Assembly (NCBI GenBank): GCA_025384855.1
Contig: JALAHT010000001.1
Location: forward strand, 811,064 to 875,063
Source: Luteirhabdus salina
GTDB taxonomy: Bacteria > Bacteroidota > Bacteroidia > Flavobacteriales > Flavobacteriaceae
DNA length: 64,000 nucleotides
Direction of reading: 5' to 3'
The notes under the pieces are model-generated. The model saw only the letters and a program-made list of their open reading frames with translations. It was not told the DNA's origin and made no database searches. The first letter of the stretch is position 1, and each line of letters starts with the position of its first letter. Shown in pieces: positions 1,768 through 56,802 of this stretch. A program made the position numbers and the translations under genes.

Positions 1768-1785
1768 GTTATTTGTTAAAAGTTA
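1768..1785. repeat. Period-7 GTTA array, 3' flank of the first four-helix-bundle element
   Basis: On the plus strand GTTA occurs at 1768, 1775 and 1782, exactly 7 bp apart. On the minus strand this reads as TAAC units, the first of which contains the stop codon of the four-helix-bundle gene. It is oriented opposite to the ACTA array at 2166-2190 on the other side of the gene. Confidence 0.5.
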
Positions 1786-2160
1786 GTGGTTGGCTTTTGC
1801 CTTCTTAAGGTAATTGATATATCCATTTAAGATAGCAACACAACCAGTAACTCGTTTCCTCATTTTGTGATACACCTCTTCAGAAATATACTTTTCATCT
1901 AAGGCTACAATCAATTGGTCCTGTAATTCGTATAAAGATCCTCTCGAAATACGACAGAACTGTATATTTTCTTGATAATGAAATCGGCCATATCCTTCAG
2001 CAATGTTATGCGTTACTGACCGAGAAGCTCTTCTCATCTGAGCTTTTAATTCATATTTTTCATCCTCAGGCAAATCGATAATGAGATTTTTCACCTCATT
2101 TCTTAATTCCCGAGCCATTTTCCAGCATTCGAGGTCTTCAAAACTTTTCAGGCTTCCCAT
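1783..2160 (-). CDS. Four-helix-bundle protein, S23 / 23S rRNA intervening-sequence family, inside the sdh operon
   Basis: This 125-residue cytosolic protein has the S23 family pattern: an N-terminal FxxLxxW, the core QMRRASRSVTHNIAEGYGR near residues 41-59, then E, F and GSxxEL further on. The fold is a four-helix bundle related to the Avd accessory protein of diversity-generating retroelements. The family was first found inside 23S rRNA genes and its biochemical role is unknown. Here it sits between sdhA (27 bases upstream) and sdhB (25 bases downstream) on the same strand, an unusual place. Both flanks are short period-7 arrays. It shares the core motif with the copy at 56443-56802 but is otherwise well diverged. 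It may be a cargo or maker of a small mobile element. Confidence 0.9.
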   Translation of the reverse strand: MGSLKSFEDLECWKMARELRNEVKNLIIDLPEDEKYELKAQMRRASRSVTHNIAEGYGRFHYQENIQFCRISRGSLYELQDQLIVALDEKYISEEVYHKMRKRVTGCVAILNGYINYLKKAKANH

Positions 2161-24409: not shown

Positions 24410-24739
24410 ATGAGTACAACGGAACAAATAGATACTAAAGAACTGGGTGAAAAAATCGTAAAAGTGTTGAAGACTATATACGATCCTGAAATACCGGTCG
24501 ATATTTATGAATTGGGACTTATTTACGATGTCTTTGTAAATGAAGATCGTGAGGTAAAGATCTTAATGACCCTAACCACTCCAAACTGTCCGGTGGCGGA
24601 AAGCCTTCCTGCGGAAGTAGAAAGCAAGGTTCGAAGCATCAAAATGGTTAAAAGTGCTGAAGTGGAAATGACCTTCGATCCGCCATGGTCGCAAGATTTG
24701 ATGAGTGAAGAAGCTAAGCTCGAATTAGGAATGCTATAA
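24410..24739 (+). CDS. SufT-like / MIP18-family (DUF59) Fe-S assembly protein
   Basis: This 109-residue protein consists of a single DUF59/MIP18 domain: IYDPEIPVDIYELGLIYDV near residues 22-40 and MTLTTPNCPVAESLP near residues 61-75, with the conserved Cys in NCP. Such proteins help mature Fe-S enzymes, and SUF-linked ones are called SufT. It is shorter than classical SufT (about 180) and lacks its N-terminal extension. It lies 1 base after sufE. Its stop is followed at once by an 8-bp-period array. Confidence 0.9.
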   Translation: MSTTEQIDTKELGEKIVKVLKTIYDPEIPVDIYELGLIYDVFVNEDREVKILMTLTTPNCPVAESLPAEVESKVRSIKMVKSAEVEMTFDPPWSQDLMSEEAKLELGML

Positions 24740-24740
24740 A

Positions 24741-24852
24741 GCGCTTTGCCCCTTTACTCCTCTGCTACTTTGAACCTTTGCTACTTTGCTACTTTGAACC
24801 TTTGCTACTTTGCTACTTTGATACTCTGTACCTCTGAACCTATGAAACTCTG
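24741..24852. repeat. Fourteen-unit 8-bp array filling an intergenic gap
   Basis: The whole space between the SufT-like stop and 4 bases before the next ATG is divided exactly into 14 units of 8 bp. Consensus is CTACTTTG; the five perfect CTACTTTG units are at 24765, 24781, 24789, 24805 and 24813, two AACCTTTG units are interleaved, and outer units are more degenerate. There is no gene inside. AACCTTTG differs by one base from the TAnnTTTG promoter box. Confidence 0.85.
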
Positions 24853-24856
24853 AAAA

Positions 24857-25366
24857 ATGGAAAACGAAATCATCAATCGCGTCGCCAATAGTAAACTTGT
24901 CACCTTCGATCTAGAAGAATTCTATCCGCAGGGCGAACGGGTTACGATAGATATTTCGCAATGGCTATTGGAAGGCATCGTACTGAAAGAGAAAGATTTT
25001 CGTGTTGCTATAAAAAATTTTAATTGGGGTCAATATTCAAATAGCTATATCGCCTTACATTGTTCTACCGATGCCATCGTTCCCGGATGGGCCTATATGT
25101 TTGTGGCGCTGGAAGCTTCAAAAGTGGCCAAAAAGGTTGTGGTTGGATCATTGGAGGAATTGGAGTCGCAACTCTTCACTGAAATCATTAACGGAATGGA
25201 CCTTTCTGAATTTCAGGATAAGCCGGTTATTATTAAAGGCTGTTCGCGTAAGCCTGTCCCACAGAGCGCCTTCGTATTGCTAGCGCAAAAGCTTCAGCCC
25301 GTGGCGCGAAGCATTATGTACGGTGAAGCCTGTTCTGCCGTACCGCTTTTCAAAAGAAAAAAATAA
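24857..25366 (+). CDS. DUF2480 family protein
   Basis: This 169-residue cytosolic protein belongs to a family known mainly from Bacteroidota. Recognisable features are the opening NRVANSKLVTFDLEEFYP, the central IALHCSTDAIVPGWAYMFV, and the C-terminal VIIKGCSRKPVPQSAFVLLAQKLQPVARSIMYGEACSAVPLFK. Several conserved Cys and His residues (HCS, KGCS, EACS) would allow metal or cluster binding, but this is not shown. It commonly lies near SUF genes, as here, which points to a link with Fe-S metabolism. Its start codon is 4 bases after the 8-bp array, which occupies the whole upstream region. Confidence 0.85.
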   Translation: MENEIINRVANSKLVTFDLEEFYPQGERVTIDISQWLLEGIVLKEKDFRVAIKNFNWGQYSNSYIALHCSTDAIVPGWAYMFVALEASKVAKKVVVGSLEELESQLFTEIINGMDLSEFQDKPVIIKGCSRKPVPQSAFVLLAQKLQPVARSIMYGEACSAVPLFKRKK

Positions 25367-56371: not shown

Positions 56372-56374
56372 TCA

Positions 56375-56435
56375 GTCTATGAGTCTATGAGTCTATGAGT
56401 CTATGAGTCTATGAGTCTATGAGTCTATGAGTCTA
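56375..56435. repeat. Perfect 8-bp tandem array, 3' flank of the second four-helix-bundle element
   Basis: Seven perfect copies of GTCTATGA followed by GTCTA, 61 bp in all, lie between the patatin gene start (3 bases away) and the stop of the four-helix-bundle gene (7 bases away). The lack of any change between copies means recent expansion, so copy number is probably variable. Confidence 0.95.
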
Positions 56436-56442
56436 AAGGTTA

Positions 56443-56802
56443 TTATTTTAGTTGTGATTTTCGTAAGGCATGTATCATTGCTGTTATTTCTGAAATATTG
56501 TTTCTTAACAGCACATATTCCTCTTTCGATATATATTCCAAATCTAAAGATAGGATACTTTGACTTACTAGCTCCATTGCAGATCCATATGCTATTTCGC
56601 TAAACCGTGCTGCTTCTTTCTTAGATTTGCGACTAACTCCTTCAGCGATGTTGGAAGAGATAGAAATAGCTGCTCTTCGCATCTGACTTATCAATCCGAA
56701 CTTTTCTTCCTCTAAAAAAGTAGCTGTTATAGTATATATTTCATATGACAAATTCCGAGATTTCTGCCAAACCTTTAACTTCTCAAAGCCAAACTTTTTC
56801 AT
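56443..56802 (-). CDS. Four-helix-bundle protein, S23 / 23S rRNA intervening-sequence family, between uvrC and the patatin gene
   Basis: This 119-residue cytosolic protein has the S23 pattern: FEKLKVWQKSR at the start, SQMRRAAISISSNIAEGVSR near residues 39-58, then EAARFSEIAYGSAMELVSQ and LEYISKEEY. It is a diverged relative of the gene at 1783-2160; the two share QMRRA, NIAEG, GS and YIS positions. It lies between uvrC (62 bases upstream) and the patatin gene (71 bases downstream), all on the minus strand. The downstream side is a perfect 8-bp array; the upstream side holds a degenerate array of the same unit in inverted orientation. There is no rRNA nearby. Function unknown; see the related findings. 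Confidence 0.9.
   Translation of the reverse strand: MKKFGFEKLKVWQKSRNLSYEIYTITATFLEEEKFGLISQMRRAAISISSNIAEGVSRKSKKEAARFSEIAYGSAMELVSQSILSLDLEYISKEEYVLLRNNISEITAMIHALRKSQLK

Follow-up and report, generated by a model that had tools for sequence, protein, structure and literature searches.

The gap between two co-directional genes of Luteirhabdus salina, a SufT-like gene and a DUF2480 gene, consists almost wholly of 8-bp tandem repeats, which raises the question of whether this is an ordinary repeat array or the vacant site of a gene-bearing element. The initial annotation, comparing it with an array beside a four-helix-bundle gene elsewhere in the window (the whole 64,000-nucleotide stretch analysed, positions G000:C1:811064-875063 of the 3.15-Mb draft flavobacterial genome G000), suggested that it could be the array part of such an element without its protein, that is, either a target before insertion or a scar after loss.

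Structure of the octamer array

The SufT-like gene (PF01883, FeS_assembly_P; 24410-24739, + strand) and the DUF2480 gene (PF10652; 24857-25366, + strand), both assigned with Pfam, are separated by 117 bp between the stop at 24739 and the start at 24857. This gap comprises a single A, the array of 112 bp (24741-24852) and an AAAA link to the start codon (24853-24856, + strand) that places an A at -3; all but 5 of its bases are array, and the 112 bp first reported as the stop-to-start distance is the length of the array itself. The proposed exact division into 14 octamers is borne out by the unit list, and the lag-8 identity of 75/104 lies beyond all of 20,000 Markov simulations, the best of which reached 57 across lags 7-9. 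The units, CT-rich on the sense (+) strand and in a single orientation throughout, have the core NNNCT[T/C]TG, in which C4, T5 and T7 are invariant, G8 is present in 13 of 14 units, position 6 is T, C or A, and positions 1-3 vary. With head-to-tail units in the range of 5-11 nt, repeated beyond chance and outside coding sequence, the array belongs among the intergenic short-unit tandem arrays (LSSR).

The outer units are degenerate, as originally described, but no run of perfect copies makes up the centre. The most regular part (24765-24820, + strand) is a higher-order repeat, AACCTTTG-CTACTTTG-CTACTTTG, detected by TRF with a period of 24 and a score of 121, and its units follow the order CTA-AAC-CTA-CTA-AAC-CTA-CTA, with CTTTG after each. 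The consensus first put forward, CTACTTTG, fits 5 of the 14 units, and NNNCTTTG describes the array better. The array ends 4 bases before the start codon, in agreement with the earlier reading. The array with which it was compared, AGTCTATG in 7.8 copies at 56374-56435 (- strand, TRF), beside the second four-helix-bundle gene (PF05635, Pfam; 56443-56802, - strand), does have a period of 8 bp; its distance from a start codon, given as 3 bases, is 2 by the TRF limits and 3 under another unit phasing. All gene calls are longest ORFs in a draft assembly, and the placement of arrays close to ORF ends may be slightly off.

The junction in the sister species and across the family

One genome per species was compared, and the sister species (G001) is the only other genome of the genus. 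DNA around the junction is 93-95% identical between the two, and the sister carries a gene-free array at the same position, reading AATCTCTG, ATTCTTTG, CTCCTTTG, AACCTTTG, ATACTTTG and then AACCTTTG four times. Related arrays at one junction in both species indicate that the array predates their split. The amplified unit differs, being AACCTTTG in the sister and CTACTTTG in the window's genome, and, judging from this comparison, different units have probably been amplified in each species since the split, rewriting the array.

More widely, we examined 135 DUF2480 loci, drawn from named GTDB genomes as well as from the family; in 121 of them SufT lies directly upstream, giving 114 distinct junctions. 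A PF05635 gene was found in none of the 121. We also rejected a hidden copy: when junctions of more than 60 bp were translated in six frames and scanned with a PF05635 profile derived from 36 loci, the best E value was 0.54, compared with 1e-44 for the positive control. The check proposed at the outset, a search for a four-helix-bundle gene inside the array of relatives, therefore came back empty. Most junctions in the family are short (0-60 bp) and the majority of relatives are array-free; 7 of the 114 bear 7-8-mer arrays, all without PF05635, namely the window's, the sister's and five from other lineages, which are built of heptamers (AGTGTTC in two, TAGTTGA, GGCTGTA and AGTCAAT).

Other small genes do occupy this gap. 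On reading the translations, we found unrelated, non-PF05635 genes (methyltransferase-like, XRE-like, YCII-like and others) that have repeatedly entered it (L030, L032, L044, L178, L189, L221, L229, L232, L234, L250, L259 and L268), and in some lineages the inserted gene sits right behind a 7-mer array. These insertions mark the operon gap as a tolerant site.

A genus-specific family of octamers

Short-unit arrays are scattered through the genome. A simple detector, run at a score of at least 18 on a 1.18-Mb sample of G000, returned 31 arrays with periods of 7, 8 or 9 (mainly 7, some 8, 9 rare), against zero at that score in a Markov control over the first 400 kb. Arrays of CTTTG octamers are present at 7 loci in G000, at 5 in the sister and at 1 locus in 58 other genomes; a reversed-pattern control gave 0 in G000 and 0 in G001. 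Unlinked arrays share unit words well above a letter-shuffle null, with 11 identical pairs among 7-mers versus a mean of 0.63, and 2 among 8-mers versus 0.01. Independent slippage from random sequence is thus insufficient to account for the sharing, and the CTTTG core common to unlinked loci requires some copying between loci or a constraint on the core, which counts against slippage alone.

From the sister comparison at the SufT-DUF2480 junction, together with the growth of the AGTCTATG array, we infer amplification by slippage or unequal exchange. The AGTCTATG array has 7.8 copies at 56374-56435 and about 2.5 in the sister (G001:C22 near 582.4 kb), a recent expansion of an array that already existed. 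In a further array of the sister (L310), AGTCTATG units pass into CTTTG octamers in one register; this continuity places the 56374-56435 array in the CTTTG octamer class, though with the reverse orientation with respect to the genes.

Base composition varies with position, arrays being CT-rich toward starts and AG-rich toward stops (Spearman -0.37, p=0.04), while a 2x2 test of polarity near stops and near starts was not significant (p=0.11). This polarity hints at function or at a polarity of insertion, and for arrays without PF05635 it is only suggestive. Some heptamer arrays of G000 grade from word to word along their length (C29:243984-244090, C29:279749-279882 and C12:388899-389101).

PF05635 cassettes and the vacant-site question

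G000 has eight matches to PF05635, one of them decayed. In the sampled part of the genome, 4 of 6 PF05635 genes have a 7-9-mer array within 200 bp, far above the rate for the remaining genes (29 of 1001; p=1.4e-5). In the sister, 0 of 5 PF05635 genes are near arrays at the threshold used for G000, and degenerate arms can be read by eye around all five. The 5' and 3' flanks of a given gene are complementary to each other beyond pairs drawn from different loci (29 of 34 PF05635 loci below the cross mean, Wilcoxon p=1.4e-6), and reading of the flanks gives a consistent order of stop codon, AG-rich 5' arm, PF05635 gene, CT-rich 3' arm, a few bases and ATG. The resulting cassettes, 427-490 bp in size and with complementary 7/8-mer arms, occupy the gap from the stop of one gene to the start of the next in the same direction; their PF05635 genes are at 1783-2160 (- strand) in the window, the 56443-56802 gene introduced above, and G000:C1:899480, C29:243561, C29:249160 and C12:77464. 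In other genera, the strict array score proved a weak marker of PF05635 and was set aside: at its strict threshold, 7 of 29 loci scored, compared with 3 of 29 controls, and the 7 include periods other than 7/8 or runs of N. The test of complementarity between arms told us more.

Whole cassettes (427 and 486 bp) are present in one species and missing from the other. Neither the cassette at C1:812825 (about 1762-2189 of the window, a 427-bp insertion) nor that at C1:899403 occurs in the sister, and L025 and G001 C11:599k provide further presence/absence differences. At L025 (G000:C1:305-306 kb; G001:C11:824-825.5 kb), the two species have different PF05635 cassettes at neighbouring junctions of one gene, and each cassette site is empty and array-free in the other species. 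At L026 (G000:C1:1060.7 kb), PF05635 is decayed in G000, with an internal TAG, and intact at the same junction of the sister (C22:378.9 kb).

The proposed link between short-unit arrays and PF05635 genes accordingly stands for the class but not for the SufT-DUF2480 junction. The array at 24741-24852 has neither the gene nor complementary arms, and shares with the cassettes its position against a start codon, 4 nt away as in the C29:249160 cassette. That it is a pre-insertion target, still unoccupied, in a genome where cassettes enter existing arrays, we regard as very improbable. Five sites that lack the cassette found in the other species bear on this reading: two retain short remnants of related units (the G000 C1:899k junction in G001 and the G001 C11:599k junction in G000), as such a model predicts, but three are array-free (G000 C1:812k and both L025 junctions), so that at least some arms arrive together with the gene. 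These array-free sites rule out arrays as insertion targets as a general rule.

A scar is easier to envisage: the gene and the 5' arm of a four-helix-bundle cassette would have been lost, leaving a solo 3' arm that was then re-amplified. In the C29:249160 cassette, the 3' arm consists of CTTTG octamers ending 4 nt before the start codon, and the array is of the same octamer class, lies on the same strand and is equally far from ATG; the mutual complementarity of cassette arms, the short unit remnants at the gene-less G000 site matching G001 C11:598992 and the first word of the sister's array, AGCTGTA, which is like an AG-type arm unit, are also consistent with a scar, and the decay of PF05635 in G000 at a junction where the sister keeps it intact shows that gene loss occurs. 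Against this, the 5' arm is missing, CTTTG/CTCTG octamers flank 1 of 37 PF05635 loci and are absent from the other 36, and the relatives lend the scar no positive support, the sister likewise carrying the array alone. The two observations that the initial annotation had itself named as counting against its proposal have largely been made, with PF05635 genes missing from all 114 distinct junctions and from the surroundings of 26 of the 31 sampled arrays. We therefore consider the scar possible but unlikely. The same low standing applies to its wider form, in which IVS-like PF05635 cassettes would insert between co-directional stops and starts in Bacteroidota, their complementary arms could form an RNA stem, and surviving solo arms, of which this array would be one, would re-amplify and disperse as genus-specific word families. 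Taken together, a target is unlikely at 24741-24852, a scar is possible, and an ordinary array is most likely.

RNA structure and a possible leader role

The array RNA folds weakly, with a minimum free energy of -2.6 kcal/mol; 300 random 112-mers drawn from the window averaged -20.4, and every one of them was at least as stable as the array. Dinucleotide-shuffled versions fold about as weakly (z=0.5), so the weak structure is a consequence of composition. We rejected a structured RNA or terminator, there being no Rfam match in the array and no structure above shuffles, as well as a promoter array, with neither TTTG-N16-24-TAnnTTTG nor the Bacteroidetes -7 consensus TAnnTTTG on its own inside 24741-24852. 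Translation in Bacteroidetes initiates without Shine-Dalgarno pairing and is tuned by mRNA structure and by an A at -3, the latter a positive determinant of initiation in Flavobacterium johnsoniae (PMC6847099). Given such structure-sensitive initiation, a C/U-rich array that ends AAAA-AUG should be a permissive leader.

Whether the array goes further and acts as a functional VNTR, whose unit number would tune translation or transcription of DUF2480, seems doubtful. In its favour, the array ends only 4 nt upstream of ATG, its unit composition is unlike between the sister species, and a translational role has been suggested for start-proximal heptamer arrays of Beggiatoaceae and some Bacteroidetes (PMC4679880). 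However, the array has no promoter consensus, DUF2480 is no known surface or contingency gene, and most relatives do without an array at this junction, many with spacers of 0-60 bp. In Haemophilus, 7-bp promoter repeats tune the expression of hmw1A and hmw2A; the array resembles these in having short tandem units upstream of a gene, with a copy number prone to change, but differs in that no promoter lies in or at 24741-24852.

Origin of the array and relation to known repeats

The reading we favour, and hold to be probable, is that the intercistronic octamer array is one copy of a genus-specific NNNCTTTG family dispersed in intergenic DNA, reshuffled by slippage and tolerated as a leader. An ancestral array would have been in place before the split of the window's species and its sister; slipped-strand replication or unequal recombination would then have produced the 24-bp CTA-CTA-AAC block here and the AAC units in the sister; and a nearly unstructured C/U-rich leader would have been tolerated, perhaps mildly favoured, ahead of the non-Shine-Dalgarno start of DUF2480.

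The array is of a known kind with another unit. Arrays of the heptamer TAACTGA, start-proximal and sometimes reversed after the stop, occur in Beggiatoaceae, Cyanobacteria and some Bacteroidetes (PMC4679880; MacGregor), and, together with other heptamers, in Gramella forsetii and Aequorivita sublithincola, both flavobacteria, whose close relatives have no array at the same junction; their proposed role is translational regulation or, for Gramella, gene rearrangement (PMC4679880). Like these, the array described here is intergenic, of short units, and ends a few nucleotides before a start codon. Unlike the TAACTGA family, it has an 8-bp unit, NNNCTTTG, and belongs to a genome with several repeat words, in which some arrays flank PF05635 genes. 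The main text of PMC4679880 contains none of the terms 'four helix', 'S23' or 'intervening', and we found no report in the open-access literature linking PF05635 genes to flanking 7/8-mer arrays. The unit length also falls within that of the prokaryotic long simple sequence repeats of Mrazek et al. 2007, as these are summarised in PMC4679880 (units of 5-11 nt, heptamers commonest, slippage proposed); as far as that summary goes, they differ from the present words, which are common to unlinked loci of one genus above expectation.

The cassettes, for their part, seem to be the mRNA equivalent of the intervening sequences of 23S rRNA. In those sequences, PF05635/S23p genes lie between complementary ends, as in the 428-nt intervening sequence of Coxiella, which is excised by RNase III (PMC4990558), and the neighbouring cassettes share with them both this arrangement and a comparable size (427 bp at G000:C1:812825). 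The array at 24741-24852 is unlike such sequences: it lies outside rRNA and lacks both a PF05635 gene and a second arm.

Taken alone, this is an intergenic repeat of an ordinary sort; its value is as a dated case of the speed of octamer turnover, seen by comparing one junction between two sister species. The class to which it belongs raises broader questions, namely how unlinked arrays of one genus come to share words, and why PF05635 genes lie between complementary repeat arms in mRNA operons as they do in 23S rRNA.
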